Of a stretch of DNA of 39,699 nucleotides, positions 813-23,293 are shown piece by piece. Source of the stretch: a virus; the IMG/VR virus record IMGVR_UViG_3300031469_000006, positions 1 to 39,699 of that record, one strand, 5' to 3'. The notes beneath the pieces are model-generated. The model was not told where the DNA came from and searched no databases. It saw only the letters and a program-made list of their open reading frames with translations. Made by a program: the position numbers and the translations under genes. Numbering within the stretch: position 1 is the first letter of the stretch; every line of letters begins with the position of its first letter.

Positions 813-950
813 ATAGACTTATCACGCCTACCAAAATAGATCCTGGGTAAACAATGGTGGTCGGGAGGTTGGAATGGGTCCGATCTCCCGATTGTCATTT
901 CCAAGACGGAACGAAGTGAAATCGTTTGTGTTTTCCTCCACGATTCCTGA
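813..950 (+). pseudogene. Broken PGD-like small gene
   Basis: A good ribosome site (AAGGAG at 803-808) is followed at 813 by ATA where a start is expected. Reading on in that frame gives DLSRLPK, an in-frame TAG at 837, then ILGKQWW and a strand-rich tail (LPIVISK, IVCVFLHDS) ending at TGA 948. LPK-stop-IL lines up with the LxPGDIL motif of the PGD family. Loss of the ATG plus a nonsense codon point to a dead paralogue of the gene just upstream. Start and stop together are two point changes, not homopolymer slips. A 7-bp inverted repeat (TCGGGAG/CTCCCGA, 861-891) lies inside. Confidence 0.5.
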
Positions 951-956
951 TACACT
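928..956 (+). promoter_or_regulatory. Promoter P1 (leaderless type)
   Basis: GTGTTT at 928, 17-nt spacer, TACACT at 951, preceded by TGA (extended -10). Six bases (TAGATC) separate the -10 from the ATG at 963, so transcription should start at or next to the start codon. Confidence 0.55.
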
Positions 957-962
957 TAGATC

Positions 963-1184
963 ATGTACTTCAAGGTGAACCTAAGGCTGAATCTGGGAAC
1001 GATCGTGTGTTTCATCGAAGCTAAGAACGAACGTGCATTGAAGAAATTGATCAAGGACGTTCATGGTCGTGATCCGGGGAACAACGGACTCGATTTTGTT
1101 GTCATCTCGAAGGAGATGTTCGAATCATGCGTTGCCGCCAAGCGTGAGTTGCTTGCTAAACATTCTCAACATGGGATTCTCTAA
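963..1184 (+). CDS. Hypothetical small alpha/beta protein, 73 aa
   Basis: Unrecognised. The sequence reads strand-turn-strand (FKVNLRLN, GTIVCFIEA), a Lys-rich helix (ERALKKLIKDV), then NNGLDFVVIS. The next gene has the same plan (GTMVVIER, helix, NQGLHVLVTT), so the two look like a diverged tandem pair. Start follows directly on promoter P1 with no Shine-Dalgarno. The stop overlaps the next start (TAATG). Confidence 0.65.
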   Translation: MYFKVNLRLNLGTIVCFIEAKNERALKKLIKDVHGRDPGNNGLDFVVISKEMFESCVAAKRELLAKHSQHGIL

Positions 1185-1375
1185 TGTTCCTCTACACCTT
1201 CACCTGGTCCTCACGCTCGTCAGCAGGAACGATGGTCGTCATCGAACGTGATGCGACTGCAGCGTGGGAGATAGCGAAGTCGTACTTTTCTGAGAACGAA
1301 CTCACGCTCGAAGGTCACGAGCCCGTCAACCAAGGACTGCACGTTCTGGTCACCACCGAACAGCGTCCTCTTTAA
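1184..1375 (+). CDS. Hypothetical small protein, paralogue of upstream gene, 63 aa
   Basis: Unrecognised. YTFTWSS, then GTMVVIERDATAAWEIAK and NQGLHVLVTTEQ match in order the strand, helix and N(N/Q)GLxxxV elements of the protein at 963. The start shares one base with the previous stop, which implies coupled translation by re-initiation. Likely early phage protein; no catalytic motif seen. Confidence 0.65.
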   Translation: MFLYTFTWSSRSSAGTMVVIERDATAAWEIAKSYFSENELTLEGHEPVNQGLHVLVTTEQRPL

Positions 1376-1376
1376 C

Positions 1377-1405
1377 GTGTTTTCACCAACAAAACGTGTT
1401 AGGAT
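1377..1405 (+). promoter_or_regulatory. Promoter P2 (leaderless type)
   Basis: GTGTTT at 1377, 17-nt spacer, TAGGAT at 1400 preceded by TGT. Six bases (AAGATC) then the ATG at 1412. The octamer AACGTGTT occurs twice here, at 1374 and 1393, and includes part of the -35. Confidence 0.6.
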
Positions 1406-1411
1406 AAGATC

Positions 1412-1615
1412 ATGAAGTACTCATTCAACGTCGATCATTCAACCAACTACGACACGTTCGAGCTCCGTGATGATCATGGGTGCGTCACGGCACGTTACGA
1501 GCGACCGGCTTGGGGCGAGACGTTCAAGCCTTCGAAGGAACGAATCCTCAAGGCATTCGCTATGCTCGTCGACCTTCCGAACGACACGATCGTTGATCGT
1601 AGCCTCGATTGCTGA
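1412..1615 (+). CDS. Hypothetical small protein, 67 aa
   Basis: Unrecognised, acidic to neutral protein. Strand-like segments (KYSFNVD, TFELRDDHGCVTARYE) are followed by a helix (SKERILKAFAMLVDL). It has its own promoter (P2) with the -10 only six bases from the ATG, so it is expected to be read from a leaderless mRNA. It is the last clearly intact gene before a stretch of about 1.1 kb dominated by broken frames. Confidence 0.65.
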   Translation: MKYSFNVDHSTNYDTFELRDDHGCVTARYERPAWGETFKPSKERILKAFAMLVDLPNDTIVDRSLDC

Positions 1616-1759
1616 ACAATCTCGGATTGCGAAGCTTACATCGGAAGTGTAACCGCGGCCGTGCAACCGCGTCGCAATAGCGTGTCGCCTGGCGTACACG
1701 TTGTCACACCCGCATGCGTCGACGTCGACGCACGCCTTACTGTCTGTTGAACCCAATCG

Positions 1760-1776
1760 TGTTTCAGTGTGAAACA
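1760..1776. promoter_or_regulatory. 17-bp dyad, possible operator
   Basis: TGTTTCA-GTG-TGAAACA is a perfect 7-bp inverted repeat with a 3-base centre, ending one base before an ATG at 1777. Dyads of this size are typical phage repressor sites, but a short RNA hairpin blocking that ATG is equally possible. Confidence 0.3.
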
Positions 1777-2049
1777 ATGAACAAGGGGGCGGGTTGCCCC
1801 ACGCGACCGACCGCAACCGTAAACGTCGGCCGAGGCTCGCGACATTGGCACGCGAGCATGCGCAGTTCGGACTTGAAACACTGCTGGAAAGCGGAAAAAG
1901 AGTACGGGCGCATCGACGTCGACTCGCATGCACACGCATCTTCTCAGGCGGAATGAGGAACGAATGCAGACGATTCGTTAGGAAAATGTGTTCCGCCGTC
2001 CGAAAACGTCGCAGAAGATTTTGCTGGCGTTCCAGTCACTCAGAAATGA
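1777..2049 (+). pseudogene. Possible broken frame, region 1616-2049
   Basis: A frame opens at ATG 1777 and runs to TGA 1954; the same frame continues as protein-like sequence (GTNADDSLGKC, VAEDFAGVPVTQK) to TGA 2047. Alternative frames across the stretch are long only because they are Arg-rich, with no protein character. I read it as a decayed gene, with low certainty. The stretch 1616-1759 holds nothing I can call. Confidence 0.25.
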
Positions 2050-2073
2050 AGCGTCGACTCGACTCATGAATGA

Positions 2074-2102
2074 GTGTTCTTTCGCCATGAATATGTTAGG
2101 AT
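2074..2102 (+). promoter_or_regulatory. Promoter P3 (leaderless type)
   Basis: GTGTTC at 2074, 17-nt spacer, TAGGAT at 2097 preceded by TGT. Five bases (CAATC) then the ATG at 2108. Shares the -10 and spacing of P2 exactly. Confidence 0.6.
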
Positions 2103-2107
2103 CAATC

Positions 2108-2275
2108 ATGAATCAAGCGTAGACAAAAAAGAATCCTCACCCTCCCGGTGGTGAATACGTCGATCCTCCTGCATCTCTGCAGGATCAGGTCACAGCATTG
2201 CAAGAGCTCGTCAACTCACTGGTATCGAAGGTCGATGAGCTCGAAAAGAAGGCCCGTAGATCGTTCTACGACTGA
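2108..2275 (+). pseudogene. Small coiled-coil gene with amber at codon 5
   Basis: A promoter (P3) and ATG are correctly placed, but the frame reads MNQA then TAG at 2120. Past the TAG it continues as a convincing small protein of about 50 residues: a Pro-rich start (NPHPPGGEYVDPPAS) and a heptad-patterned coiled coil (LQDQVTALQELVNSLVSKVD) ending at TGA 2273. Either a nonsense mutation killed it recently or translation restarts after the stop. Large genes of this phage contain no in-frame TAG, so general TAG recoding is not the explanation. A hairpin (CCTGCA-TCTC-TGCAGG) lies at the DPPASLQ codons. Confidence 0.5.
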
Positions 2276-2411
2276 GAGACGGAGACGTTCTGTCGAAGTC
2301 TCCACACACCGCAAGGTGCCCGCTGAAGTCTGGAGACTATTGCGGCGAGCGAAAGTCTCTGAGCGCCTGAGTCACTGTAGTCTCGCAAGTCGTTCCGACC
2401 GGTCTTTTCGA

Positions 2412-2440
2412 GTGTTCAAGCCCTCTCAACGTGATAGAAT
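2412..2440 (+). promoter_or_regulatory. Promoter P4
   Basis: GTGTTC at 2412, 17-nt spacer, TAGAAT at 2435 preceded by TGA. No ATG stands 5-6 bases downstream as it does at P1-P3 and P5; the expected position falls on CTG ACT, the start of a decayed frame. Confidence 0.5.
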
Positions 2441-2443
2441 GAA

Positions 2444-2674
2444 CTGACTCGCTTGGTTGCGAGTCGCAGCGAGCAACTCATGCTGGCGACGAACGATCTG
2501 ATCATGAGCGGAATGACGCTGGCATTCTTCGCAGCCCCCCTCGACGGTGAATTTTAAACGGAAGTGAGAGAAAACGAAGCGTGAGCGCCGGAGCACTGTT
2601 AATTAAAAACGCAACAAAGTCAACTCATGTTGGAGAAAGCCGCAGCAATTCGTGAGGAACAGAGGAAAGACTGA
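2444..2674 (+). pseudogene. Decayed gene behind promoter P4
   Basis: From CTG at 2444 one frame reads LTRLVASRSEQLMLATNDLI, then MSGMTLAFFAAPLDGEF, TAA, TEVRENEA, TGA, APEHC, TAA, and LKTQQSQLMLEKAAAIREEQ ending at TGA 2672. The amphipathic helices and absence of shifts argue for a former protein of about 75 residues with three nonsense codons. An open stretch from ATG 2480 still gives 25 residues. An RNA function for the transcript is possible; CTCGC-TTGGTT-GCGAG forms a small stem at its start. Confidence 0.35.
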
Positions 2675-2714
2675 GTCCTGGACCGAACCCAATTTCGAAA
2701 GCTCTTGACTTACG

Positions 2715-2876
2715 GTGACACACGATTCTTTTTGTTGCTACGAGGGACAAGAGTGCATTCGATGCGAGCGCCCTGGTGAGTGTGCTATGTGCGTCCGTGC
2801 CGCGAGAGTGAATGGGTCACACAGTGGGATCCACCCGTGCAAAGCACGGATGTGCTTTGCAACCCCCGCACAGTGA
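2715..2876 (+). CDS. Small Cys-rich protein, 53 aa
   Basis: A GTG-started frame with ten Cys among 53 residues. The core CIRCERPGECAMC is a CxxC-x5-CxxC arrangement typical of a small zinc ribbon, followed by His residues and more Cys (HPCKARMC). Function unknown; it could bind zinc and nucleic acid. The ribosome site is weak, and the neighbouring frames are broken, so it may itself be a remnant. The C-terminal codons lie in a strong hairpin. Confidence 0.4.
   Translation: MTHDSFCCYEGQECIRCERPGECAMCVRAARVNGSHSGIHPCKARMCFATPAQ
2838..2861. other. Perfect 10-bp hairpin
   Basis: TGCAAAGCAC and GTGCTTTGCA flank the loop GGAT. It overlaps the 3' end of the Cys-rich frame. No U-run follows, so it is not a classic terminator; it may stabilise RNA or end a transcript by another route. 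Confidence 0.45.
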
Positions 2877-2938
2877 TGCGTAACATCGCATCACGAAGTG
2901 CGACAAAACGCATTGCAGCCACGTAGTATCCGGGATGA

Positions 2939-3025
2939 GACGAAAATGACGGGTTGCAGCGAGCGCTTCAACGACAGGCACAGGACGAGGCATACGATGC
3001 TGTGTGTTTTTATGAACTTCGATAG
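2939..3025 (+). pseudogene. Short protein-like remnant
   Basis: This frame reads DENDGLQRALQRQAQDEAYD then AVCFYELR and a TAG at 3023. It has no start codon in frame; an ATG at 2935 is one base out of frame. Upstream in the same frame, from ATG 2876, MRNIASRSATKRIAAT ends at TAG, followed by TGA. It looks like the helical tail of a former small gene. Confidence 0.3.
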
Positions 3026-3242
3026 GTTTACAACCAGGATTGCTTGGCGGTGCCTGCTGCCTGGAATGACGATGATCCAGCTGCCTGGAATGACGATGAT
3101 CCACGGTGACGGCCCGTACCTCGTGATCTCCGTGTCAAGGATTGAACCGCATTTGACAGAGGCGACATTCCTTAGAAGGCGCCACCGACAGATCGTCTCG
3201 TACGTCGATTACGACACTGCCACGGTCAAGGTCATGAAATGA
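3012..3242 (+). CDS. PGD-like small protein with duplicated motif, 76 aa
   Basis: This start is preferred over the upstream ATG at 2898 because residues before it are Arg-rich and overlap broken genes. LLPGMTMI matches the LLPGDML motif of the PGD family, followed by the expected strand PYLVISVSRI. The motif is present twice (LPGMTMIQ, LPGMTMIH) because of a perfect 24-bp tandem duplication that keeps frame. The tail has strand and Asp-rich segments (IVSYVDYD). It overlaps the next gene by ATGA. Function unknown. Confidence 0.55.
   Translation: MNFDRFTTRIAWRCLLPGMTMIQLPGMTMIHGDGPYLVISVSRIEPHLTEATFLRRRHRQIVSYVDYDTATVKVMK
3056..3103. repeat. 24-bp perfect tandem duplication
   Basis: Two identical 24-base units, 3056-3079 and 3080-3103, each beginning GCTGCCTGGAATGACG. 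The duplication adds eight residues to the PGD-like protein without shifting the frame; no sequence divergence between copies suggests it is recent. Confidence 0.9.
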
Positions 3243-3667
3243 GGTTCATCACCACGAACGAGCTCAAAAGTTTTGCAATGCACCGAGGTGATCGATATTT
3301 ACAGATCACGATGCCGCTGTTTGACCTCCTGGACGATTTTGATCACTTTAAGACGAGAAATTCAGCACCGTCAGGGTCATCTTGCACATCAAAGTGCGAC
3401 GATCCCTCGAGCAGAATGGCGATGAAGCACATGATCAACGCGCTGGATCGACGTGACACGATGTTCCTCGGTGACCTGTCCGCCGTTGCCGCCCTGTCGA
3501 TAGAACGAACCGAGGTGCTGGTTGATCACCTTGTATCGGTCGGTGCCATTTCGAGATTGACGATCGATGAATTACGAAAGCTTGGATTGATGGATACCAG
3601 CATCGTCGTTAAGATTCAACGTCGTGTCTGCGAGAGCATTGCACTCGCCGTGCACGAACGAACGTAA
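3239..3667 (+). CDS. Hypothetical protein, possible winged helix, 142 aa
   Basis: Unrecognised. The start overlaps the upstream stop as ATGA. From about residue 60 the sequence looks like a helix-turn-helix fold: HMINALDRRDTMFLGDL, then ALSIERTEVLVDHLVSVGA and ISRLTIDELRKLGL. This arrangement (long helix, short helix, recognition helix) would suit a small DNA-binding regulator, but no key residues identify a family. The N-terminal 60 residues have no clear features. Confidence 0.6.
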   Translation: MRFITTNELKSFAMHRGDRYLQITMPLFDLLDDFDHFKTRNSAPSGSSCTSKCDDPSSRMAMKHMINALDRRDTMFLGDLSAVAALSIERTEVLVDHLVSVGAISRLTIDELRKLGLMDTSIVVKIQRRVCESIALAVHERT

Positions 3668-3673
3668 TTATTG

Positions 3674-3702
3674 GTGTTTTGACATCGTACATGTGTTATC
3701 GT
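3674..3702 (+). promoter_or_regulatory. Promoter P5 (leaderless type)
   Basis: GTGTTT at 3674, 17-nt spacer, TATCGT at 3697 preceded by TGT. Five bases (TCATC) then ATG at 3708. Overlaps nothing coding except the first base after the previous stop. Confidence 0.6.
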
Positions 3703-3707
3703 TCATC

Positions 3708-4103
3708 ATGACATACGCGATTGCCAAGGTAATCTACGGATTACCGAATTCTGAATATTTTGAAACGAGCGTCAAGAACATCGACATCGCATCGATCGAC
3801 AAGGAATGGATTTCAGACAATAATATTGTCGATGGCAACGATCTTCTCGAGTTCCTGTTCGAATCAGGTGATTTCTTTGACACGGCATACACGGGTCGTG
3901 GATACGTTCAGGCGGGTTGGATCGGTTTTGAACTTGGTTCATTTGATGAATGCGGCGAGAACGTGAAATTGTCGAGCTTGATGTTCACACCGAATGAATC
4001 GCAGAAAGCGATTGCAGAGGAACGCATTAACAAACTTCCGCAGCAGGTTCGTGATCTTCTTCCTCCCGACATCGATGTGTACGTGGTGTGGAGCACATCT
4101 TAA
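3708..4103 (+). CDS. Hypothetical acidic protein, 131 aa
   Basis: Unrecognised. The start at 3708 fits promoter P5; the frame is open upstream but without protein character. N-terminus MTYAIAKVIYGLPNSE, then acidic segments (DGNDLLEFLFESGDFFD), a Gly/Trp-rich strand region (GRGYVQAGWIGFELGSFDE) and a helical tail (QKAIAEERINKLPQQVRDLL) ending PPDIDVYVVWS. It reads as a compact soluble domain. No signal peptide. Confidence 0.65.
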   Translation: MTYAIAKVIYGLPNSEYFETSVKNIDIASIDKEWISDNNIVDGNDLLEFLFESGDFFDTAYTGRGYVQAGWIGFELGSFDECGENVKLSSLMFTPNESQKAIAEERINKLPQQVRDLLPPDIDVYVVWSTS

Positions 4104-4150
4104 TTTGAGAAATTATTGTTCGGTGGGTCGGACTTCTTACTTTTTTATCT

Positions 4151-4426
4151 ATGATCACCAACGATTGGGACGGACAATGGACAACGTTGTTACCGGGTGA
4201 CATGTTATTCAAGAATGACAACAAGCTCGTGTATTACGTGATCGTGTCACGTATCAGAAATCAGGACATTACGAGCGTCGTGTTCATGGTATGTACGGCT
4301 CACCTGAAACTGAAACCTGGAAAAATGTTTCAAGTTGATTACGACATGACCAGGTCGCAACTTTCACAAAAATCTGATTGGACGGTGGTGAGGACAAGAT
4401 CGTGTGTTCATCCACTGATTACATGA
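4151..4426 (+). CDS. PGD-motif small protein, 91 aa
   Basis: WTTLLPGDMLFKND near the N-terminus is the PGD-family motif, followed by strands YYVIVSRIR and SVVFMVCTA. The tail has a further VDYD segment also seen in the relative at 3012, ending WTVVRTRSC. It starts after a T-rich stretch with no Shine-Dalgarno. Probably a small barrel-like protein of unknown role. Confidence 0.65.
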   Translation: MITNDWDGQWTTLLPGDMLFKNDNKLVYYVIVSRIRNQDITSVVFMVCTAHLKLKPGKMFQVDYDMTRSQLSQKSDWTVVRTRSCVHPLIT

Positions 4427-4435
4427 TCATCGTAC

Positions 4436-4642
4436 ATGGCTTTCACCATTCTAGCTGTAACGGTGTTGGTTGTTGTCGTAACGATTTGTGTTGTCAAGCT
4501 CGTTCGTACTGTAAAGGAGCACAAGTGCGATCATAACTTTCGCCAGGTGAATTCCAACTTCGATGTAACGTTCGGTAGGACAACATCGCACCTCTGCCAG
4601 AATGTGGCAGAGTCATCATCAACATGTAGTGTAAACGGTTAA
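4436..4642 (+). CDS. Small single-span membrane protein, 68 aa
   Basis: Residues 2-23 are a strong membrane segment (FTILAVTVLVVVVTICVVKL). The rest is polar and contains KCDHNFRQV, a Cys/His pair that recurs in small phage proteins. N-terminal anchor and hydrophilic tail could suit a spanin-like or inner-membrane factor, but nothing identifies it. It lies ahead of the structural block. Confidence 0.55.
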   Translation: MAFTILAVTVLVVVVTICVVKLVRTVKEHKCDHNFRQVNSNFDVTFGRTTSHLCQNVAESSSTCSVNG

Positions 4643-4666
4643 CATTCGTGGCATTGTTCATACAAT

Positions 4667-5515
4667 ATGAGCATGCCAGATGATAGATCGTCCTCAAACA
4701 AGGTATTTTCGGAGACACCGCAGCAAACAACAACCTTGCCGAAGGTTCAGTTGCAGGTAGACGTTGTCCCTGTATCCGCGGTCTCACTTCCGTCAAAAGG
4801 AAAGGTGTATCCGCCCGATCATCCTTTCCACCTCGTTGAGACCGTCGATATCACTGCGATGACCGCACGTGAGGAGGACATCCTCACGTCATCTGCGTTG
4901 CTAAAGAACGGCACCGTGATCTCCGAATTGATCAAGTCATGTCTGTGTAACAAATCAGTCGATGTTGATTCATTGCTGATGGGCGACATGAACGCACTGA
5001 TGATCGCGGTTCGTGCCGTTGGTTACGGAACTGATTACGACACGCAAATCAAGTGTGAAGAATGCGGTGAACAGACCGATCGTCAATTCAACCTCGCCAA
5101 TCTGGGAATCAAGGGCCTGACGCTTGAACCGGTCGTGACGGGAGAGAATCTGTTCGAGATGAAGCTCCCCGTTTCAAAACGTCTGGTTCGATTCAGGTTC
5201 CTCACCGGAAGGACAAAGAACGAGATCACCGTCACGGCTGAACGAATGAAGAAGAACTTCAAGTCACAGCTCGATACGCTCGTCACGTCGAACCTCGCTC
5301 AAGCGATCGTATCGATCGATGGTGATGACGATCGATCTCGTATCATCAAGTTCGTCAGCATGATGCCCGCTCTTGACAGCCGGGCGCTTCGTAAGTACAT
5401 GAAGGACAATGAACCTGGCATTGACATGAAGCAGGATACGAAGTGCGAAGCATGTGGGCACGTCGAGGAAGTGATCATCCCTCTCGGGTCAACGTTTTTT
5501 TGGCCTGAGACCTGA
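4667..5515 (+). CDS. T4 gp26-like baseplate hub protein
   Basis: A baseplate hub component or hub-assembly factor of the T4 gp26 type (T4_baseplate family). Shown by the family signature LPSKGKVYPP near residue 41, an acidic helix region (TAREEDILTSS), VDSLLMGDMNALMIAVRAVG, and two CxxC pairs (C130/C133 and C260/C263) that could hold zinc. The C-terminus ends FFWPET, as relatives do. An alternative start at 4673 lies six bases after TACAAT and would fit the leaderless pattern. A gp51-like gene follows, as expected for hub genes. Confidence 0.8.
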   Translation: MSMPDDRSSSNKVFSETPQQTTTLPKVQLQVDVVPVSAVSLPSKGKVYPPDHPFHLVETVDITAMTAREEDILTSSALLKNGTVISELIKSCLCNKSVDVDSLLMGDMNALMIAVRAVGYGTDYDTQIKCEECGEQTDRQFNLANLGIKGLTLEPVVTGENLFEMKLPVSKRLVRFRFLTGRTKNEITVTAERMKKNFKSQLDTLVTSNLAQAIVSIDGDDDRSRIIKFVSMMPALDSRALRKYMKDNEPGIDMKQDTKCEACGHVEEVIIPLGSTFFWPET

Positions 5516-5552
5516 AGATAAGGCTTTACTCTTTTTAGAACCAATTTTCGTA

Positions 5553-5768
5553 TTGCTATATTACGGGGGATTTACTTACGCCGAAGCGTATAATCTTCCC
5601 GTTCCATTTCGTCGTTGGTTTGTTGATAGAATCATACGAGAAATTAAAGGCAAAGATTCAAACGATCCCCCTCCGAATCGTGCTGTTCATACAAATGATC
5701 CTCAAACTCGTGAGTTAATGGGAATGCAAAGAAATCAACAACCTTCAAGGTTACGAAGATTTACGTAA
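5553..5768 (+). CDS. gp51-like hub assembly protein
   Basis: The segment YYGGFTYAEAYNLPVPFRRW matches the short protein that follows gp26-like genes in T4-type phages (hub assembly catalyst gp51 type). TTG at 5553 is the first usual start codon, but the frame is open upstream and protein-like (LRPEDKALLFLEPIFVLL), so translation may begin at CTG 5505 within the end of the gp26-like gene, or the T7 run at 5495-5501 may be involved. The tail is polar and Arg-rich. An endonuclease gene follows directly. Confidence 0.6.
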   Translation: MLYYGGFTYAEAYNLPVPFRRWFVDRIIREIKGKDSNDPPPNRAVHTNDPQTRELMGMQRNQQPSRLRRFT

Positions 5769-6631
5769 TGTTCGTTGAAACGAAAAAAATTCCTTCAAAA
5801 ATTGATAGATTAGGTCGTCAATGGTACAAATCTATTAACGTTTTTAGTTGTGATGAATGTTCAACTAAATTCGAAAGCGGTTTAAAACGCCAAGGAAAAT
5901 TACATTTCTGTAAAAGAGAGTGTTTTAGACTTTCGGCTAAAGGTGGAATTTTACGCTCAAAGAAAGAAGCAACTTGTTTAGCAAAGTACGGAACGACTTC
6001 GCCATTAAGTTCAAGTGAGTGTTTAAAAAAATCTCGTATAACATGTTTACAAAAATACGGAGTAGAAACTACAGGTCAATCACGAATTTCAATTGAAAAT
6101 CGTCAAAAAACTTGTTTAAAACGTTACGGAAAAATTTCGTTTTTAGGAACGAAACAATGCAAAAAACGATACAATGATCCAGAAATTGAACAAAGATGTC
6201 GCGATTCATTCAAAAAAGTTGATTGGGTAAAAAGAAACACGAAAAAATTTGAGACAATGAAATTAAACAATTCGTTCAAAACATCAAAACCCGAAGAAAT
6301 CATTCACTCAATCTTGATCGATCATTTTGGTGAAAACGATGTTGAACGTCAAGTCCAGATCAACGATCACTGGTTCATAGACTTTCATGTCAAATCAATT
6401 GACACATACGTTCAATACGACAGTTACTGGCATGGTTATAAAAGTGATGGAACGTTGCGAGATTTGAACGAAGTTGCTGAGTTCAAATCAAAACAAGACA
6501 AGTCCATTCATGGAAAAATGTTGATCGACCAACGACAAAATGAATGGTTCAAAGCACGAAATATGAGGCTAATTCGTGTCATTTGCGATGAATACTTGAA
6601 CATTGATGCGTTAATTTCTCGAATCACATAA
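5768..6631 (+). CDS. EDxHD (Vsr-like) homing endonuclease, 287 aa
   Basis: A free-standing mobile nuclease. The N-terminus has a Cys4 zinc-like element (CDEC...CKREC). The middle holds repeats of TCLxKYG (about residues 75-125), a DNA-binding repeat found in this family. The C-terminus carries the Vsr-like nuclease core: VERQVQINDHWFIDFHV, then VQYDSYWHG, with the E, D, H and Q-Y-D residues expected for EDxHD enzymes such as I-Bth0305I. It is more AT-rich than the structural genes around it and begins on the last base of the gp51-like gene. Two relatives lie at 29319 and 32503. Confidence 0.85.
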   Translation: MFVETKKIPSKIDRLGRQWYKSINVFSCDECSTKFESGLKRQGKLHFCKRECFRLSAKGGILRSKKEATCLAKYGTTSPLSSSECLKKSRITCLQKYGVETTGQSRISIENRQKTCLKRYGKISFLGTKQCKKRYNDPEIEQRCRDSFKKVDWVKRNTKKFETMKLNNSFKTSKPEEIIHSILIDHFGENDVERQVQINDHWFIDFHVKSIDTYVQYDSYWHGYKSDGTLRDLNEVAEFKSKQDKSIHGKMLIDQRQNEWFKARNMRLIRVICDEYLNIDALISRIT

Positions 6632-6666
6632 ATTGTTCTTTTTTCACTTTCATAGTATGATAGATT

Positions 6667-7356
6667 ATGAAGTTGTCTTTGTTTGCATGCATCTCGTTAA
6701 TTGCATGCAACGGTCAAGATGTAACTCAGTTGATCAACGAACCACCCATTATTGACGGTGGTACGATCATCGTTGATTCTTCCGTTGGGATTGTTCTAGT
6801 TGACTCGAAAATACCCGTTGATGATGCAGGTACGTGTCTGGATGCTGGAATCGATGACGCAGCACTTCACTTTTTTATTGATGACGCAAGTGTTGTTGAA
6901 ATCGTCCCACCGATTGATGCTGGGCACGATGCGGGATCAGTTAAGATCGTTCCTACGATGTCGTTTTCAATTGTAGGTCCCGATCCTTACGGGTACCTCA
7001 CGGCTCAATTACCGATCGTTCTTCAACGTTGGAGCGTTGCAACTTGTACGAATCTCGTTGTGGGTGAAGGCGAACACGTTGTTCAATACGGCGATCGTAC
7101 GAACATGACGGGTACTCGATTGGGACAGACGACGGGGACTTGGGATAACGCAATCATTCGAATCAAAAGTGAACTGATTCAATCTACGGTACGAGTGGTA
7201 ATGATGCATGAAATTGGTCACGTTCTTGGAAGAACCAATGAACATTCGACTGATGGGATTGATTCTGATTCCATGTCAATTCCAAAGATCACTGCATCTT
7301 CTCTTGAACTCGCATGCAAGTCCTGGACGTGCAAATGTCAACATCCGGAAATTTAA
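6667..7356 (+). CDS. Lipoprotein zinc metalloprotease, 229 aa
   Basis: A predicted membrane-anchored protease. The N-terminus is a lipoprotein signal (SLFACISLIAC, lipobox LIAC with Cys14). Residues 20-95 form an acidic linker rich in D-A-G (DDAGTCLDAGIDDA, IDAGHDAGS). The catalytic site is HEIGHVLGRTNEH at 181-193, and DSDSMS around residue 200 looks like the Met-turn of metzincins. The third His is two residues further along than in the standard HExxHxxGxxH. It may act on the host envelope or as a superinfection factor; in any case an unusual phage cargo in a structural operon. Confidence 0.75.
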   Translation: MKLSLFACISLIACNGQDVTQLINEPPIIDGGTIIVDSSVGIVLVDSKIPVDDAGTCLDAGIDDAALHFFIDDASVVEIVPPIDAGHDAGSVKIVPTMSFSIVGPDPYGYLTAQLPIVLQRWSVATCTNLVVGEGEHVVQYGDRTNMTGTRLGQTTGTWDNAIIRIKSELIQSTVRVVMMHEIGHVLGRTNEHSTDGIDSDSMSIPKITASSLELACKSWTCKCQHPEI

Positions 7357-7574
7357 AAACGCTCATCGGTGAATTGGTTCCGGGCGATTTTTTGATCGAT
7401 CAAGATTCCGATCATCCCGAGCACGAAAATGAAACTCTGCTCGTCATCAGTGTTGACGAAACGAAGATCACGTTGATCACTCGTGAAATCACCTACCTTA
7501 CTTGGCAACTTGCAGCGAACGAATTTCTTGACATAGATCGATGTGGCTGGAAATTGATTCCGATATGTACGTGA
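7314..7574 (+). CDS. PGD-motif small protein, 86 aa
   Basis: LIGELVPGDFLIDQD is the PGD motif, followed after an acidic spacer by LLVISVDETKITLITREI and a Trp (TWQLAA). This is the best-preserved copy of the family pattern together with its neighbour at 7541. A second in-frame ATG at 7335 is equally likely as the start; both overlap the end of the metalloprotease gene. Function unknown. Confidence 0.65.
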   Translation: MQVLDVQMSTSGNLKTLIGELVPGDFLIDQDSDHPEHENETLLVISVDETKITLITREITYLTWQLAANEFLDIDRCGWKLIPICT

Positions 7575-7840
7575 TCGTGATGTACCCCTACCCTACGCCC
7601 GAACAGGTTCGTTATAGGAATTTATCGATTTCGTCGACACGAATTGAAGATCTTTTGCCAGGTGATTTGCTTGTATTTGATCTTAATCGGGGGAATGATT
7701 TACTCGTGATCGAAAAAAGTGAAAGTGGTATCACGCTAATCAATCTTAAAAACATGTCCAAATTCTCCTGGACAATGAAGTACACGAACGTCTTGATAAA
7801 GAGCATGGGTTTTCTCTTGTTACGAAAGGAAGATAATTAA
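7541..7840 (+). CDS. PGD-motif small protein, 99 aa
   Basis: RIEDLLPGDLLVFDLN followed by LLVIEKSESGITLINL and FSWTMKY repeats the layout of the preceding protein (PGD, LLVI, ITLI, Trp), so the two are tandem paralogues. In-frame ATGs at 7541, 7565 and 7580 are all possible starts; 7580 would avoid most of the overlap. No membrane segment. Function unknown. Confidence 0.65.
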   Translation: MWLEIDSDMYVIVMYPYPTPEQVRYRNLSISSTRIEDLLPGDLLVFDLNRGNDLLVIEKSESGITLINLKNMSKFSWTMKYTNVLIKSMGFLLLRKEDN

Positions 7841-7843
7841 GCT

Positions 7844-8101
7844 GTGCATCTTAATCTCCTCGGAAAACTCTTTTTAGGATCGCTTGCAGCATGGGCGGTT
7901 GGAAAAGCCACGAACGTCAAGCTCAGGGGCACGAAGGACGAGATAGAGGCCGTTGCGAATGCGATGATGTCGAGCAGAAAATTTCAGGAGGAGCTAGCAA
8001 AACCTGGCGCAACGGTGAACAGCGTGATGACCCACCTGAACGTCAAGAACATGGACGCTGAGAGGTTCGAAAGAACATTCGGTGTGAAGTTTCCTTTATG
8101 A
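7844..8101 (+). CDS. Conserved phage small protein, 85 aa
   Basis: A GTG-started gene resembling a short protein common beside baseplate genes in large T4-like phages. The N-terminus has a hydrophobic helix (LLGKLFLGSLAAWAVGKATN), then KLRGTKDEIEAVANAMMSSR and a helical remainder ending FERTFGVKFPL. Probably membrane-associated or structural. It overlaps the next gene by ATGA. Confidence 0.65.
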   Translation: MHLNLLGKLFLGSLAAWAVGKATNVKLRGTKDEIEAVANAMMSSRKFQEELAKPGATVNSVMTHLNVKNMDAERFERTFGVKFPL

Positions 8102-8847: not shown

Positions 8848-8848
8848 A

Positions 8849-9481: not shown

Positions 9482-9505
9482 AGCTAACGAACGCTTACTT
9501 ATGAC

Positions 9506-14500: not shown

Positions 14501-14518
14501 CATTCATAGTTATTTTCA

Positions 14519-16552: not shown

Positions 16553-17603
16553 CGATATGTGGGTCAAGGTCAACAAGTTGACATCGATGGTGTACCCGCA
16601 GTACACGAAGGGTCGAACGCTCACGACTCAAGACGGTCAAAACACGATCATTCAACCATTCAGCCAGCTGATGTCTGCGAGCCCGCTCGTTCGTTTGCGA
16701 ATCGGTGACGTCATCAGGTCGAACTACTCACGATTCGCACTTTCACGTTTGTTCGGTGCCGATTCAGGCGAGATGGTTCTCAACGGAACGAAGATCAAGT
16801 TCGAAGGTTTGCTGGAAGAGCTGAAAAAGAAATTGCAGGATGCGATCTCCACCAAGAATGAGAACTACACATGGGCATTGTCAACCGACAACCTCAGCAA
16901 TCAAACTGAAGGCGCAACACGCGTAACGTTACCAACGATCCCGATCATCGGTGGGATCAATCAAGGTGCGGGATTCGCTCCGACGTTCCAGGTTGACAAG
17001 CACGACATCAAGTTCTTTGAATTCAAGATCACGAGCGGTAACGACAAGACAACGAAAAACCTTATCGTGAAACCTTCGATCATGGAGGCGGGTGAGATGC
17101 TATCACGATTCAGCATGAATTCCGACGACGTGTCGAGGATTCGAGCGTCGCTTAAAAAGAAGTACGACAACAACGAGAACTCATCACGTCGTGTCATCGG
17201 TGGATCGTACAACGTGCATTCAGATAATCTCCTTCCAACGATTCGAACCGTGAACGAGATCAAGGATCAGATCCTATCGAGCAACTCAGAGATCTCTGAT
17301 TCAGTCCAACAACTATCTGAATTCCTGAACCCCGATAAGAACGCTTTGGTTAGATCGTTTCAGGAGACTCGTGGACAGGGGCTTGCTGGAAAGATTGACA
17401 ATCTCGACTTCGATTTCTACGATAATGTAACATGGGAAACAAATATCGGACAAAGAGCTCCTCGATTTTTTAAAGTGAATTTTTCATTCACGCCTATTCA
17501 CGATATTTCTCCTGGTATTGATTTTCAAGGGTTCAATCGTGCGCCTATTTATTCTCTGGGCTGGCACAAAATGGATTCTGATTCTGTGAAAGAAGGAAAA
17601 TAA
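16522..17603 (+). CDS. Baseplate structural protein, C-terminal part
   Basis: Continues the preceding frame after loss of one T: FYIASTSEEDFNDMWVKVNK, then LTSMVYPQYTKGR and VRLRIGDV, a signature of T4-type baseplate or tail-tube-cap proteins (gp48-like region). No start codon with a ribosome site exists near the junction, so this is not an independent gene; the in-frame ATG at 16422 lies in the overlap and codes for unrelated residues. The final 180 bases are more AT-rich than the rest and adjoin a GIY-YIG endonuclease. Confidence 0.65.
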
Positions 17604-17604
17604 C

Positions 17605-17925
17605 ATGTTTTTTGTTTATACTGATGAAACTGATTCGGGAATTGTTTTCTATGTTGGAAAAGGTAACCAAAAACGTATTAAACATTTCAATCGAAATGTG
17701 AAGCATAAAAATGTTCGCAATAAACATGGCATTGTAAGAAAAATTGTATTTGAAACCGAAACAGAACAAGAAGCTTTTGACAAGGAAATTGATCTGATCA
17801 AAGAATTTCATACTTTCTATCAAGATCCTCTTTCAAGTTCATTTGCTTGTAACTTGACATTAGGCGGTGAAGGTGTCAGTGGTCGAAAACCAATGCTGGG
17901 AAAAAAAACATTCCGAGGAAACTAA
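17605..17925 (+). CDS. GIY-YIG homing endonuclease, N-terminal part
   Basis: Catalytic domain: FVYTDETDSGIVFYVGKGNQ is a GIY-YIG start, followed by RIKHFNRN and a helix with the acidic residue (EQEAFDKEIDLIKEF), then NLTLGGEGVSG. The frame ends at 17925 after an A8 run (17901-17908); one A fewer joins it to the downstream DNA-binding region, giving 263 residues. AT-rich, starts one base after the baseplate gene. A mobile gene in the structural block. Confidence 0.75.
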   Translation: MFFVYTDETDSGIVFYVGKGNQKRIKHFNRNVKHKNVRNKHGIVRKIVFETETEQEAFDKEIDLIKEFHTFYQDPLSSSFACNLTLGGEGVSGRKPMLGKKTFRGN

Positions 17926-18397
17926 GAGAAAAATGCGTAAACCAAAACCTGAATCTTTCAAAGATCATTTATGGGGAAATACTCATTCTAAAGGTTTTAG
18001 GTTTTCTTCTGAACAACGATTAAACATTTCTAATTCAGCAAAAAATCGCCCGCCCGTTTCAGATGAAACTAGAATCAAATTGAGTATTGCATCGAAAAAA
18101 CGTGCCCCAATGCCAATTGAAACTCGTAAGTTGATATCGCAATCATTGAAAGGTAGGACCGGACATATTCCTTCAAAAGAAACAAGGGAAAAAATTTCAC
18201 TTGCGAACAAAAGAAGAATCTCTAAACCTGTTACGGATAACGCGAAACAAAATATGAGAATTGCCGCAAAAGGTAAAATCAAATCTGAATCTCATAAAGA
18301 AAATTTACGGTTAGCTGCGCGCCGCCAACACGCATTGATTCGTCAAAAAAAAGGTGTTTCAAAACCAGGCGATGATTTACTTTTGAGGGTTTCGTAA
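17867..18397 (+). CDS. GIY-YIG endonuclease, C-terminal NUMOD3-type part
   Basis: From about 17909 this +1 frame carries repeated SEETKRKMRK-type units (SDETRIKLSIASK, PIETRKLISQSLKG, SKETREKISLANK), the NUMOD3-like DNA-binding repeats that follow GIY-YIG domains. The residues before 17909 belong to another frame, so the ATG at 17867 is probably not used. The basic tail ends just before the gp53-like gene. Together with the upstream frame it makes one endonuclease. Confidence 0.7.
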   Translation: MKVSVVENQCWEKKHSEETKRKMRKPKPESFKDHLWGNTHSKGFRFSSEQRLNISNSAKNRPPVSDETRIKLSIASKKRAPMPIETRKLISQSLKGRTGHIPSKETREKISLANKRRISKPVTDNAKQNMRIAAKGKIKSESHKENLRLAARRQHALIRQKKGVSKPGDDLLLRVS

Positions 18398-18687
18398 TGT
18401 TCAGTCGCTACAATCGTTGTCCCATCCTTCGTTTGGGTGAGCAATACGGCACATCAGAAGCCATCAACGTCATTCGTTCAGGTATCAAGAACGGTACGAT
18501 CAAAACACGTGAATTAACGCTTACGGAAGCACAACGGCTCGATACTTTATCGGGAATAATATACGGCGACGGTCGTGCGTGGTGGATTTTGGCGGCGGCG
18601 AGTTCGATCGGTTACGGGCTCCAAGTTCCTCCTGGCACGATCATCAACGTTCCCGACATCAATGACATCGCGGCATTACTCTCGTGA
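18397..18687 (+). CDS. gp53-like baseplate wedge protein, 96 aa
   Basis: LDTLSGIIYGDGRAWWILAA followed by SSIGYGLQVPPGTIINVPD is the pattern of short baseplate proteins related to T4 gp53, with a LysM-like YGDxxxWW...PPGTxIxVP motif. It starts right at the end of the endonuclease and overlaps the next gene by GTGA. Expected to sit in the baseplate wedge. Confidence 0.7.
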   Translation: MFSRYNRCPILRLGEQYGTSEAINVIRSGIKNGTIKTRELTLTEAQRLDTLSGIIYGDGRAWWILAAASSIGYGLQVPPGTIINVPDINDIAALLS

Positions 18688-19319
18688 CACAGATTTTACG
18701 TAATTTCATTCAAGAGGTCGCAGCTTCGACATCGGATGCAAAGAAACGTCATCTTGCGTTGCACATTTCTACGGGATCGGGTACACGAAAGTGTTACACT
18801 TTGTACGATCCAAGTGTTTTTTTAGACGAGATGAAGCCATTGCAGAAAGCACTGCAAAAAACGGGTAGAGCTGAAGGTTATACGGATGAGGGTGTCGCTC
18901 AAAGGTTGAGGAAATCCATTGTTGGAATCATTGAATTCAAGAAACCCAGCGCTTCCGCGTACGGTGCAAAAGAGGTTCAAGCATCCGCGGCTGAAAAGGG
19001 TTACGGTCCTTTGATGTACGACATTGCAATGATGCCTCTTGATGATGTCATGAACCCTAAAACACCACAAAAATTCGATGATTCATACGTCTTTGGTTCA
19101 AGTACAGAAGAAGGACCTTACGGTCCCGGACCGTACGATGATGATCCTCGTCAAGACGAAGACGTCTTGAACTATGCTTATGCGTTGGGCGATTTTCCAT
19201 CAATTCAAGCACTATTCGATAATGATCAAAATACCTTCAAGGATGTCATCGTGAACGATTTGAACGCAGTATTCAACTTAGCATTCATGAAGTACTTTCA
19301 TAATAAGTACAATTCATGA
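18684..19319 (+). CDS. Capsid-targeting-like protein, GYGPLMYDIAM family, 211 aa
   Basis: Starts with MTQILRNFIQEVAA, the shared segment with IQE as the likely cut. The body belongs to a family with four members in this window: LALHI and YTLYDPS strands, SIVGIIEF, AYGAKEVQASAAEKGYGPL, MYDIAM, then an acidic Asp-rich C-terminal half. A central strand followed by a KGYGPL loop and a helix resembles the acetyl-CoA loop of GNAT acyltransferases, but this is a guess from pattern only. GTG start overlapping the gp53-like stop; coupled to a paralogue downstream. Confidence 0.6.
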   Translation: MTQILRNFIQEVAASTSDAKKRHLALHISTGSGTRKCYTLYDPSVFLDEMKPLQKALQKTGRAEGYTDEGVAQRLRKSIVGIIEFKKPSASAYGAKEVQASAAEKGYGPLMYDIAMMPLDDVMNPKTPQKFDDSYVFGSSTEEGPYGPGPYDDDPRQDEDVLNYAYALGDFPSIQALFDNDQNTFKDVIVNDLNAVFNLAFMKYFHNKYNS

Positions 19320-19969
19320 AGAAACTATTCGAGGCGGCGATCTCAGTTCCCGAGGCGAAGCGTCGTGGTTTAGCACTGCATCGATCGATCGATGATACCT
19401 TCGTTGTCTACACGTTGTACGATACGAAAGAATTCATGAAGAAGATTGGAGAATTCTTTGAAGATTATCGCCATGATGATGCTGATCTCGTGGGTCCGAT
19501 TGAGGATTCGATCGTTGGAACAATAACCGTGAAAAATCCCGAAGGGAAAGCTTGGGGCGCGAAGGAGGTTGCGAATTCCGCGGCTGAAAAAGGTTACGGT
19601 CCCCTGATGTACGACATTGCAATGGCGTTCGAAGGTGCATTGATTTCCGACAGGGACAAAGTATCAAAATCAGCCTTGAACGTGTGGAAAAAGTACAAAG
19701 AAAGACCGGACGTTGATGCAAGGGAACTTGATGATATCAGCGATCCAGTTACCCCATCCCCCGAAGATGACTCGTTCGTGTACTACGATAGCAAATCACA
19801 TGTTCTTAATTACGCGTACTCGCTAGAGTACTTTCCTTCTATAAAAGAACTGTTCGATAACGACAAGGTTGTCATTTCTAACGTTGAAATGTCGGATCCA
19901 GATTACGTGTTCAACGAAGCCTCAAGATCGTATTTTTCGATGAGGTATGATGCGGGGGAACCATCTTGA
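19316..19969 (+). CDS. Paralogue of preceding GYGPLMYDIAM protein, 217 aa
   Basis: Same order of elements: LALHRSI, VVYTLYDTKEF, SIVGTITVKNPEGKAWGAKE, AAEKGYGPLMYDIAM, ALISDRDKVSKSALNVWKKY, acidic tail. Its N-terminus is short (MKKLFEAAISVPEAK) and only weakly like the targeting segment, so it may stay in the cell or be bound by its partner. Overlaps the upstream gene by ATGA. Function unknown, possibly acyltransferase-like. Confidence 0.6.
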   Translation: MKKLFEAAISVPEAKRRGLALHRSIDDTFVVYTLYDTKEFMKKIGEFFEDYRHDDADLVGPIEDSIVGTITVKNPEGKAWGAKEVANSAAEKGYGPLMYDIAMAFEGALISDRDKVSKSALNVWKKYKERPDVDARELDDISDPVTPSPEDDSFVYYDSKSHVLNYAYSLEYFPSIKELFDNDKVVISNVEMSDPDYVFNEASRSYFSMRYDAGEPS

Positions 19970-19972
19970 TTG

Positions 19973-19989
19973 GTAGATAAGTAATCTAC
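19973..19989. promoter_or_regulatory. Hairpin at the start of the hub gene
   Basis: GTAGAT-AAGTA-ATCTAC is a perfect 6-bp stem ending one base before ATG 19991, where a ribosome site should be. No Shine-Dalgarno is visible. It could hide the start or be a protein-binding dyad. Confidence 0.3.
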
Positions 19990-19990
19990 G

Positions 19991-22939
19991 ATGGGCGCTG
20001 ATTTTTCTGATCTAAGGAATATATTCTCCATGTTCTCTCCTGCGGACCTCTCGGGGGTCATTGAGAACACGGGCGGTGTCAAGGACGGTGATAGATCGAA
20101 CATTGTCAAGAGGCTTCTGAAGTTGCTGGTTGATCGTGACGGTGGAGGAACACCAACCGTCGCAACGATGAAGAAAGAACTCGAAGAGATCCTCTTGAAG
20201 GCGAACGACGAGGATGCGAAGGATTTCCATCGTGCAATTCGTTTCTACTCAACAGCTGGTAACGTGTCAACGAACGGCGTTGACTGGCAACTGATGTACC
20301 AGGACGTTGATGATCAATTGAAGCAATCAAAGATCACGAACAACGAGTTCGAACGGATCGTATCGTTGGATCCGTTCGCTAGAACGAAGAGCGAGAAGGG
20401 CGTCTCGATCATCTGCAGCGATGAGAACTTCATCAGCCCCTTGACAATCGCAGCACGTGATGCTGAGATCTTTCTCAACTTTATGCCAAGTCTCGTGATG
20501 TCGAGATGCGTTCCTTATTTATCAACCGATTTCGTATTCGATAGATCGTTCCTCAAGAATTCACGATTGAATGCCCCCAGCTTGCTAAAGTTCCTGCTCG
20601 GTGCTCAGAACATCACGAAGGGTCAAGCTGGTGATTTCAGTGATGGTACTGCGAACGACATGATGGTTGAAGGTAACACGATACGTGCTGACTACACTGA
20701 TAGTTCGAAAGAATTCCCATCAGACATGACGATCGGTGGTATGGAATTATTCACCTCCCCGCAAACGCTAACGAATCCTTCTCCCGTTGCTGAGGGCTCA
20801 CGCTACGTCAACGTTCTCGATCATTTCAGGCCGCTCGCTTCCGTTGAAAGCTTTACCGTCGAGGTACGACCGACGTTTGGAATGATGACCTACAAGACTG
20901 CGAACCTCACATTGATAGTTCATGATCGTTCGAGGCTGAGCGAGCTCGCTGATTTGATCAAACCATTGATCTACGCACAAACGACCGTATGGGTGACGTA
21001 CGGGTGGCGTCACCCAATAGAACCTAACAATCCTTACGCGAATTTCATCAACAATAAATTACTCGTTCGTGAACCGTACGGTATCGTCAATAGCTCGTAC
21101 GAGTTCGACCAGGTTGGGCAAGTGAAAGTCAACCTCCAGCTTTACACGAGAGGCGTGCAGGAGCTTAAGGACATTCGTGTGACTGATACCAAGAATTCAT
21201 TCAAGGATCTCGAAAAGCAGATTCAAAAGCTTGCCGACGACATTCAAGGTTACAGAGAAAAGCTCAACCTCGACAAGGGAGTCGGTGTCTTGAAGGAGAT
21301 TCGTGCGTATCAAATCATTGAGGCTGGATCGTTCGGATCATTTCCTAGCATCGATCCCAAGGAAGTCGCAACGTTGTTGTCCAAAATCGACAAGACGTTC
21401 CTCAAGGAATCAAACAAGATCGACGTTGAAGCCGCGGAAGGACTGAAGAAAGCTCTGCAAAAATTGTACGAAACGGAAGGTTCAAAGGAAAAGAAATTCG
21501 CATTCAACCAACGCTTCAATGATCGAGCCGACGCTGCGGTGAAGAAATTGTTCGATGAGGTCCGCTCGGGAGTCGACGTGTTCCTGTTGACCGAGGAAAA
21601 GGACAAGAAACGTTCTGAGCAACTGAACGCTCAAAAACATCCCTTCACCGAGATCACGACTCGTTACAACAACACGGTGTTTCGTGACAAGGAGAACAGA
21701 AGCGACAAGCAATTCAGAAAGCTCGTGTCATTCGGTAAATTGTTCACCACGTTCTTGACCAACGCAGTAGCCACGATGTCAAGCATTGACGAGCTTCAAA
21801 TGTTTTTCTACCCGTTCAATGAATCTGCGGGAAAAGCTGCGAGCACGAACATCGCTGAATTTCCGATCGACATGAGCGTGTTTCTCGATCAATTCAAGGA
21901 TCACATTGCAACTCGGAAGACGGATCGAATCACGATGGAGGAGTTCCTGAAGCTCGTGATTGATTCGCAGTTACAGGACGTACGTGGACCAGGATACGGG
22001 TTCTTCACGTACTTCGAACCGTATGACCCCAAATTGAAGGATGCGAAGCTCAGGAAGAACCAATCAGATAACTACGAGACAGCCTTAGCGCAACAGGGTG
22101 ATAAGAACGGTCCATTCAAGATGCCTGCAATCGACGTCTACGTTGAAGCAACGCAGGTCGCTCTAAGTTCCGTTGCTTCGGGCGATCTGTTGAAATCGTT
22201 CGAACGCAACTTGAATGAATTGTCGGGCAAGACGAACGACTCCAATTTTACGAAGGTTCTTAGGGTTCACGTCTTCGACAAGACGATAGATCCTTATCCA
22301 CTCGCAGGATCAATCCTGAAATCCGACAAACGTGAATTCAAGAATTCGAAGCAACAGGAGAAACTGAACACGAAATTCAAGTCGATCATTGAAAAATCGA
22401 TCAGGAACTTCGATCAAGAACTTTTGTTGCAAACGGGTCAACGATTGAAACCCGATCAAAGGTTCGGTGTCCAAATAGAAGATGGTGCATCGTACGAAAC
22501 TATCAAGCGTTTGGTGAGTCTCACGATACCCACGATCATTTACGGTGGAAATGCTTCGACGATATCGAACATCACGATAGCATCGAAACAAGATCCACTG
22601 TTGACTTCTGTACAGATGTTATCATCTAAAGCTGGGCGTCCCGCAGTAACCCAACCAAATGGAGGTGGAACTTACGGTCTACCATTACGAGTCATTCCCG
22701 GCGCGGTTACAGTAACCTCGTTGGGTTGCCCACTAGCTCGATATGCACAGATGTGGTATCTCGACGTAAACACGGGAACCTCGCTCGACAACAGGTATGG
22801 TATAACGGGAATTACTCATACATTATCACCCGGTCGATTCGAAACAACAATGAATATGGTCTGGAGCGATGCGTATGGTCAATATGAATCTAGCGATACA
22901 CTACTAAATTTTGTTAAAAACCTCGATATTCCTAAGTGA
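19991..22939 (+). CDS. Baseplate hub protein, gp27-like, 982 aa
   Basis: A large structural protein of T4-like baseplates. Recognised by VWVTYGWRHP, YANFINNKLLVREPYGIVNS, FDQVGQVKVNLQLYTRG in the middle third, a charged coiled-coil region (KDLEKQIQKLADDIQGYREK), and a gp27-like C-terminus (NTGTSLDNRYGITGITHTL, PGRFETTMNMVW). Likely forms the hub that carries the tail spike or lysozyme. The last 300 bases are poorer in the codon style of the rest and lie beside a nuclease gene on the other strand, with which the 3' ends overlap by eight bases. Confidence 0.75.
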   Translation: MGADFSDLRNIFSMFSPADLSGVIENTGGVKDGDRSNIVKRLLKLLVDRDGGGTPTVATMKKELEEILLKANDEDAKDFHRAIRFYSTAGNVSTNGVDWQLMYQDVDDQLKQSKITNNEFERIVSLDPFARTKSEKGVSIICSDENFISPLTIAARDAEIFLNFMPSLVMSRCVPYLSTDFVFDRSFLKNSRLNAPSLLKFLLGAQNITKGQAGDFSDGTANDMMVEGNTIRADYTDSSKEFPSDMTIGGMELFTSPQTLTNPSPVAEGSRYVNVLDHFRPLASVESFTVEVRPTFGMMTYKTANLTLIVHDRSRLSELADLIKPLIYAQTTVWVTYGWRHPIEPNNPYANFINNKLLVREPYGIVNSSYEFDQVGQVKVNLQLYTRGVQELKDIRVTDTKNSFKDLEKQIQKLADDIQGYREKLNLDKGVGVLKEIRAYQIIEAGSFGSFPSIDPKEVATLLSKIDKTFLKESNKIDVEAAEGLKKALQKLYETEGSKEKKFAFNQRFNDRADAAVKKLFDEVRSGVDVFLLTEEKDKKRSEQLNAQKHPFTEITTRYNNTVFRDKENRSDKQFRKLVSFGKLFTTFLTNAVATMSSIDELQMFFYPFNESAGKAASTNIAEFPIDMSVFLDQFKDHIATRKTDRITMEEFLKLVIDSQLQDVRGPGYGFFTYFEPYDPKLKDAKLRKNQSDNYETALAQQGDKNGPFKMPAIDVYVEATQVALSSVASGDLLKSFERNLNELSGKTNDSNFTKVLRVHVFDKTIDPYPLAGSILKSDKREFKNSKQQEKLNTKFKSIIEKSIRNFDQELLLQTGQRLKPDQRFGVQIEDGASYETIKRLVSLTIPTIIYGGNASTISNITIASKQDPLLTSVQMLSSKAGRPAVTQPNGGGTYGLPLRVIPGAVTVTSLGCPLARYAQMWYLDVNTGTSLDNRYGITGITHTLSPGRFETTMNMVWSDAYGQYESSDTLLNFVKNLDIPK

Positions 22940-23225
22940 GAATTCCAAGTTGTATCAATTTATCGTGATCCCATAATTCAGAGTTCTTGTAATTTTCCTG
23001 AAACCATTTCCATTTTTCACGAGATGATTCATGCCGCCACCAACCTTTAATCTCAATGTAAATATTTGCAAAAGTTCCCGATTTAATCAAGGCGTCAACG
23101 ATGTACGAGCGTCCCGAAGGCATTTTAAATCTGATTTGCCAGTCAAATTGAATTTTATTGTCATTAAACCAATTTACAACGGCAACTTCATACGATGTTT
23201 GACAAAATATAAGATAACGTTTCAT
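22932..23225 (-). CDS. Small PD-(D/E)XK homing-type endonuclease, 97 aa
   Basis: Start chosen at ATG 23225; an in-frame TTG at 23243 is possible. SYEVAVVNWFNDNKIQFDWQ is the helix and first strand, SGRSYIVDALI supplies the Asp, and NIYIEIKGWW the ExK of a PD-(D/E)XK nuclease related to Vsr-type mobile enzymes. Short for the fold. Opposite in direction to its neighbours and converging with the hub gene; AT-rich. Ends in TAG, unlike nearly all other genes here. Confidence 0.65.
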   Translation of the reverse strand: MKRYLIFCQTSYEVAVVNWFNDNKIQFDWQIRFKMPSGRSYIVDALIKSGTFANIYIEIKGWWRHESSREKWKWFQENYKNSELWDHDKLIQLGILT

Positions 23226-23264
23226 TGACCGCTCTTGGCCCAACGAAAGTAATCAACTTTTGGT

Positions 23265-23293
23265 GTGTACGTAATTAATCGAAGTGGTAGAAT
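23265..23293 (+). promoter_or_regulatory. Promoter P6
   Basis: GTGTAC at 23265, 17-nt spacer, TAGAAT at 23288 preceded by TGG. It is of the same family as P1-P5, but here a leader of about 20 bases with AAGGA precedes the lipoprotein ATG at 23319. Confidence 0.5.

Follow-up and report, generated by a model that had tools for sequence, protein, structure and literature searches.

The 39,699-nt stretch of IMG/VR virus record IMGVR_UViG_3300031469_000006 (the window, by which we mean this whole stretch) raises the question of which RNA polymerase reads a set of recurrent promoter-like sites in it, and how the mRNAs that begin there are translated. An earlier note on this DNA had described six such sites, at 928, 1377, 2074, 2412, 3674 and 23265, in which GTGT-NN is followed by a 17-nt spacer and a TANNNT hexamer. 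In this study, the spacer and a TGN adjoining the -10 were verified at all six, and the ATG codons at 963, 1412, 2108 and 3708 were found 6, 6, 5 and 5 nt past the -10, respectively. We consider it likely that a host sigma-A-like polymerase reads one early-type promoter family here and that the resulting leaderless mRNAs are translated.

The occurrence of the pattern in the window was examined on both strands. GTGT-N19-TANNNT was present eight times on the plus strand and was absent from the minus strand. The version containing TGN was found seven times forward and never in reverse, whereas 200 Markov-1 shuffles gave 0.09 matches on average and never more than 2. Other spacings of this version gave only 0-1 matches.

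The search was extended to a composite T4-like soil phage of 183,147 bp, designated phage A, which was built from overlapping IMG/VR contigs including the window. Contig 3300030846_000100 (74,351 bp) includes the window in reverse (identity of L009 to the window, 99.975%; L104, 100%), contig 3300031469_000005 (112,886 bp) overlaps it by 14,837 bp at 99.99%, and contig 3300030846_000103 contributes 10.7 kb more. Since these contigs stem from different assemblies, the composite serves as a working scaffold rather than as one verified genome. PHROG matches placed T4-like core genes in the window, namely UvsX, a gp32-like single-stranded DNA-binding protein, a gp41-like helicase, a family B polymerase, a baseplate hub protein and ribonucleotide reductase. 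Genes were called by a simple in-house script instead of a published gene finder, and some error in gene borders is therefore expected.

A position model was trained on ten sites of the first contig and then run on the remaining, unseen sequence. It found about 34 sites scoring at least 14 bits, nearly all of them intergenic. At 12 bits there were 50 matches, compared with 7 in the reversed sequence. The pattern [GAT]TGTT-N15-TGN-TANNNT occurred 37 times across the composite, and 36 of these matches lay outside called genes even though coding DNA makes up about 76% of the sequence (P about 1e-21). This distribution indicates a real promoter family with about 40 very similar members, and it goes against the refuting outcome named in the earlier note, a pattern as common inside genes as before them. 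The idea that the sites are a chance pattern without function can draw on two of the eight bare-pattern matches in the window (29371 and 39540), which score like noise. It is refuted by the seven TGN-containing matches against 0.09 expected, by the validation on held-out sequence and by the intergenic bias, and we give it practically no weight.

The refined consensus has an A/T-rich upstream part, [G]TGTT[C/T]TTTC, a spacer whose end is rich in A, and TG[A/T]TANGAT. The -35 originally given as GTGT-NN is described better by [G]TGTT[C/T], with position 6 invariably a pyrimidine. The spacer is 17 nt at 29 sites of the composite and 18 nt at 5, with 0-2 matches in the control, so that the fixed length proposed in the earlier note holds for its six sites and not for the whole genome. 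TGN-TANNNT with a -35 element at 16-18 nt is the layout of extended -10 promoters of the sigma-70/sigma-A type. The sites cluster on two divergent arms that meet at the window's left end. They precede small orphan open reading frames (ORFs), two DNA ligases and one RNA ligase, and hardly any lie in the structural and replication blocks.

We then considered the position of the start codons. In the held-out sequence, the first ATG to open an ORF of 25 codons or more was 5-7 nt past the -10 at 13 of 21 sites, where random intergenic points predict 2.6% (P about 4e-16). The same distance was seen at several sites with an 18-nt spacer. A scan centred on gene starts, which did not require a -35, found that TGNTANNNT stopped 5 or 6 nt short of the start in 11 + 11 of 190 genes, over a background of about 0.3 per position. 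Starts thus peak 5-6 nt after the hexamer. Leaderless (TA-led) genes have TANNNT some 10-12 bp ahead of the start codon, measured to the first T of the hexamer, and the layout here agrees with this and with the TA-led signal described by Zheng et al. (PMC3160421).

Shine-Dalgarno (SD) use was different in the two groups of genes. SD-like 4-mers were found upstream of 60 of 164 other genes, compared with 6 of 26 leaderless-type genes, and all six of the latter lay within the -10 itself. Outside the -10, none of the 26 had one. SD use in the rest of the genome is real, as AAAGGA occurs 24 times against 6.2 expected. In mycobacteria the -10 and the SD sequence are reported to be mutually exclusive (PMC4633059), and the pattern here agrees with this. 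Sequence homology also bears on the start codons. Residue 4 of the DNA ligase behind the phage A site at 60623 (+), whose ATG is at +6, aligned with residue 3 of T4 gp30 (5wfy), an alignment by which the predicted start is confirmed. Profile alignments begin at position 3 for an RNA ligase and at position 1 for a DUF7336 protein, which supports their predicted start codons. The leaderless layout described in the earlier note is therefore real and genome-wide, as judged by the held-out phasing, the start-centred scan and the lack of SD sequences outside the -10.

These observations can be compared with the opposite view, in which transcription starts upstream, the mRNAs are not leaderless and the -10-like TAGGAT is in fact an SD sequence (AGGA) at normal spacing. 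The six genes with an SD-like 4-mer within the -10 and the genuine SD use elsewhere are consistent with it. However, 20 of the 26 genes lack an SD-like 4-mer altogether, the remainder have it only inside the -10, and both TGN and the -35 at 17 nt are locked to the hexamer. We consider this view improbable.

In the preferred reading, the sites make up a single promoter family on both divergent arms of phage A, with [G]TGTTY, a spacer of 17 or more rarely 18 nt, and TANGAT directly preceded by TGW. The -35, the extended -10 and the 17-nt spacer are elements of the kind that a housekeeping (sigma-70/sigma-A) RNA polymerase recognizes. Because the ATG is mostly 5-7 nt past the -10, sigma-70 geometry predicts that transcription starts at the start codon or within 1-2 nt of it. 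The first gene of each unit would then have a leaderless mRNA, and host ribosomes would be expected to initiate efficiently on its 5'-terminal AUG. Translation of this kind is common in some phyla but inefficient in E. coli. The host holoenzyme would presumably read the family at the onset of infection. Three observations suggest such an early, host-read class: the sites lie ahead of small orphan ORFs and some genes for nucleic-acid enzymes, with hardly any in the structural and replication blocks; an unrelated phage has the same family; and the sigma factor of phage A lacks region 4.

The unrelated phage, designated phage B, is 3300031231_000003 (124 kb). It carries the same promoter family, with leaderless ATG or GTG starts. 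Only 16 of 224 phage A genes had protein matches in phage B, and most of the 16 matched the same three phage B proteins, apparently repeat families, for example homing endonucleases. In 80 T4-like relatives, whose UvsX is about 55% identical, the motif was not enriched (8 matches against 13 in the control). Pattern scans for further relatives gave a clear excess only in additional contigs of phages A and B. Since the family is common to unrelated phages and not to relatives, recognition by the host's own polymerase is suggested. Phage A encodes an RpoD-like sigma factor (L162:3526-4305, +) with regions 2 and 3 and no region 4 match, and a 101-aa ORF follows it. Such a sigma factor should be unable to read a -35. 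In phage B, a region 4 match falls in a separate protein (L167:11756-12226, -). The split arrangement is reminiscent of T4 gp55/gp33.

The same data bear on a middle-class interpretation, in which a phage sigma factor or a MotA-like activator binds the TGTTY box in place of the host -35 contact and the leaderless layout is kept. It would account for a -35 box that is unlike TTGACA, extends into TTTC and shows a weak dyad, and it is in line with the RpoD-like sigma of phage A and with the nucleic-acid enzymes (DNA and RNA ligases) among the genes. However, the 17-nt spacing and the extended -10 are sigma-70 geometry. A MotA box has its centre at -30 (13 bp upstream of the -10) and replaces the -35 (PMC2988021), whereas 17 nt separate the conserved hexamer from the -10 here. 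In addition, phage B has the family but merely a region 4 sigma fragment, and the phage A sigma lacks that region. We regard a middle class as unlikely.

The dyad, TGTTC-N9-GAACA or similar, covers the -35 and spacer of the sites at window positions -4297 and -4017 on the minus strand and 49897 on the plus strand (10418-, 10698- and 64612+ in the coordinates of the 74-kb composite). Over the full set of sites it is weak, with an axis score of 0.436 against up to 0.351 elsewhere. Two other promoter types were considered and rejected. The T4-type late promoter (TATAAATA) was absent upstream of genes, and a second class built on GTGTTACAATGA, hinted at by k-mer counts, was unconvincing when inspected.

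Several findings weigh against host recognition with leaderless translation. The -35 GTGTTY differs from TTGACA, and an activator or an alternative sigma is therefore possible. The site at 2412 is without a start codon just downstream and does not have the leaderless layout; it may drive a product that is not translated or is encoded at a distance. The frame from ATG 2108 (2108..2276, +) reads MNQA and then meets an in-frame TAG as codon 5 (2120-2122), after which it is open and codon-like up to the stop at 2274-2276. Further copies of this frame that might account for the TAG were sought, and besides the window only G001 has one. The 23265 site is followed by a 25-nt leader with AAGGA and then ATG 23319. 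A 20-nt leader with AAGGA also follows the sites C:4669 of phage A and B:74675 of phage B, and the promoter family therefore serves leadered genes too. Finally, because TAGGAT holds AGGA at SD spacing, read-through transcripts from upstream could use it for initiation.

We also asked how the similarity among the sites arose. In mobile cassettes of the PeSL type, it would come from copying of promoters between hypervariable regions and not from independent selection, which is compatible with the preferred reading. A near-copy of the 928 site at window -2130 (G001/G011) has 86% of its spacer bases in common with it, and the ORFs downstream of the two are unrelated. The two leadered sites mentioned above, C:4669 (L213:4669-4723) and B:74675 (L168:14675-14730), have a 55-bp promoter plus SD leader that is 86% identical and precedes different genes. 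This segment looks like an exchanged promoter cassette. However, mean spacer identity among the sites is just 0.33, and the flanks past the promoter are no more alike than expected by chance (0.27 and 0.26). The sites are therefore not simple duplications or parts of duplicated genes, although a few pairs resemble copied cassettes. Copying as the general source of the similarity is possible, in our view at clearly less than an even chance. PeSL early promoter/stem-loop cassettes of T4-like phages (Comeau 2014, as cited in PMC4503421), which join an early promoter to a stem-loop terminator, are alike in their near-identical early promoters, unrelated ORFs and variable regions. The likeness considered here is that of the promoters, and the flanks of the present sites are not shared.

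T4 early genes have leaders with SD sequences, whereas most of the genes here are leaderless. The early promoters of T4 (Pe; PMC2988021) are alike in their strong -35/TGn/-10 elements, many copies, position before small early genes and T4-type genome. The likeness to them proposed earlier therefore stands for the build, with its -35, extended -10 and fixed spacing. It does not extend to the -35 sequence, which is [G]TGTT[C/T] here and not the T4-type GTTTAC given in that proposal, nor to the T4-like relatives, as the 80 examined are without the motif. The family occupies the place where T4 early promoters would be, and by this analogy in position and gene content its timing would be early.

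The earlier note had called a phage class of leaderless mRNAs unusual. This view has to be softened, as most middle and late mRNAs of Thermus phage phiYS40 are leaderless in the account of Sevostyanova 2007 given by PMC3594737. As described there, phiYS40 is likewise a large phage that has a leaderless mRNA class and depends on the host polymerase. It differs in that its class is middle/late and belongs to a phage of a thermophile, whereas the class here looks early and belongs to a T4-like phage. TA-led, leaderless genes also occur in Actinobacteria, Deinococcus-Thermus and other bacteria (PMC3160421, PMC12340547, PMC4633059). They similarly carry TANNNT some 6-7 nt ahead of the start codon, lack an SD and coexist with SD-led genes. 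Here, by contrast, the layout comes with a conserved -35 and an extended -10 and is concentrated in one phage promoter family.

A broader interpretation is that large phages which infect the same bacterium but are unrelated to one another have in common an early regulon with a promoter fused to the start codon. Early takeover proteins would be made from leaderless mRNAs and later genes would be SD-led, giving a translation-level early/late switch set by the host's sigma factor and ribosomes. We put this forward tentatively, with a chance somewhat short of even. If leaderless translation occurs here, the host ribosomes must accept leaderless mRNA, and the sigma consensus together with this tolerance would provide a handle on the host. 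About 30 leaderless-type starts under a common strong promoter form a compact, testable set, with a natural contrast of leaderless and leadered genes within one genome. Gene callers that rely on SD sequences would misplace such starts.

The individual sites of the window were compared by a leave-one-out (LOO) score. The strongest, all on the plus strand, were 2074..2102 (GTGTTC-17-TAGGAT, TGT before the -10; LOO 28.9) and 1377..1405 (GTGTTT-17-TAGGAT, TGT; LOO 27.5), followed by 2412..2440 (GTGTTC-17-TAGAAT, TGA; LOO 20.5), 928..956 (GTGTTT-17-TACACT, TGA; LOO 16.7) and 3674..3702 (GTGTTT-17-TATCGT, TGT; LOO 12.8). The sixth, 23265..23293 (GTGTAC-17-TAGAAT, TGG, +), is a weak or doubtful member at 9.3, against 12.8-28.9 for these five. 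Two members had been overlooked. One, at 6633..6661 (+), is TTGTTC-17-TATGAT with TAG replacing TGN (score 14.6) and has ATG 6667 at 5 nt. The other is a divergent 18-nt-spacer variant at 81..110 (-), GTGTTT-18-TAAGGT with TGA before the -10, which faces leftward genes beyond the window.

Leaderless-type starts on the plus strand open ORFs of 73 aa (963..1184), 67 aa (1412..1615) and 131 aa (3708..4103), each without a Pfam match, and of 229 aa (6667..7356), with a weak zincin-like match. Homologues of the 3708 protein were sought and found only in G001.

Outside the window, phage A carries two gluconeogenesis enzymes, an ATP-type PEP carboxykinase (PEPCK; L162:182-1750, +) and a class 1 fructose-bisphosphatase (L162:14659-15561, -), as well as Ku (L162:6285-7058, +) and GroEL (L162:16082-17698, -). 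Searches of GroEL, Ku and the sigma factor against phages gave distant matches only. A PEPCK search of bacterial genomes directed at the host gave a single, uninformative partial match, in a Euryarchaeota metagenome-assembled genome. In a collection of 50,697 phage records, PEPCK had just 8 matches, several of them resembling host contamination, and Ku was otherwise found almost only in mycobacteriophages.

Within the window, the roughly 600 bases after the 2412 site (2440-3000) have little coding signal. Their hairpin-rich part at 2800-2950 folds better than mononucleotide shuffles (z about -3.7), and the stretch is possibly an untranslated RNA.

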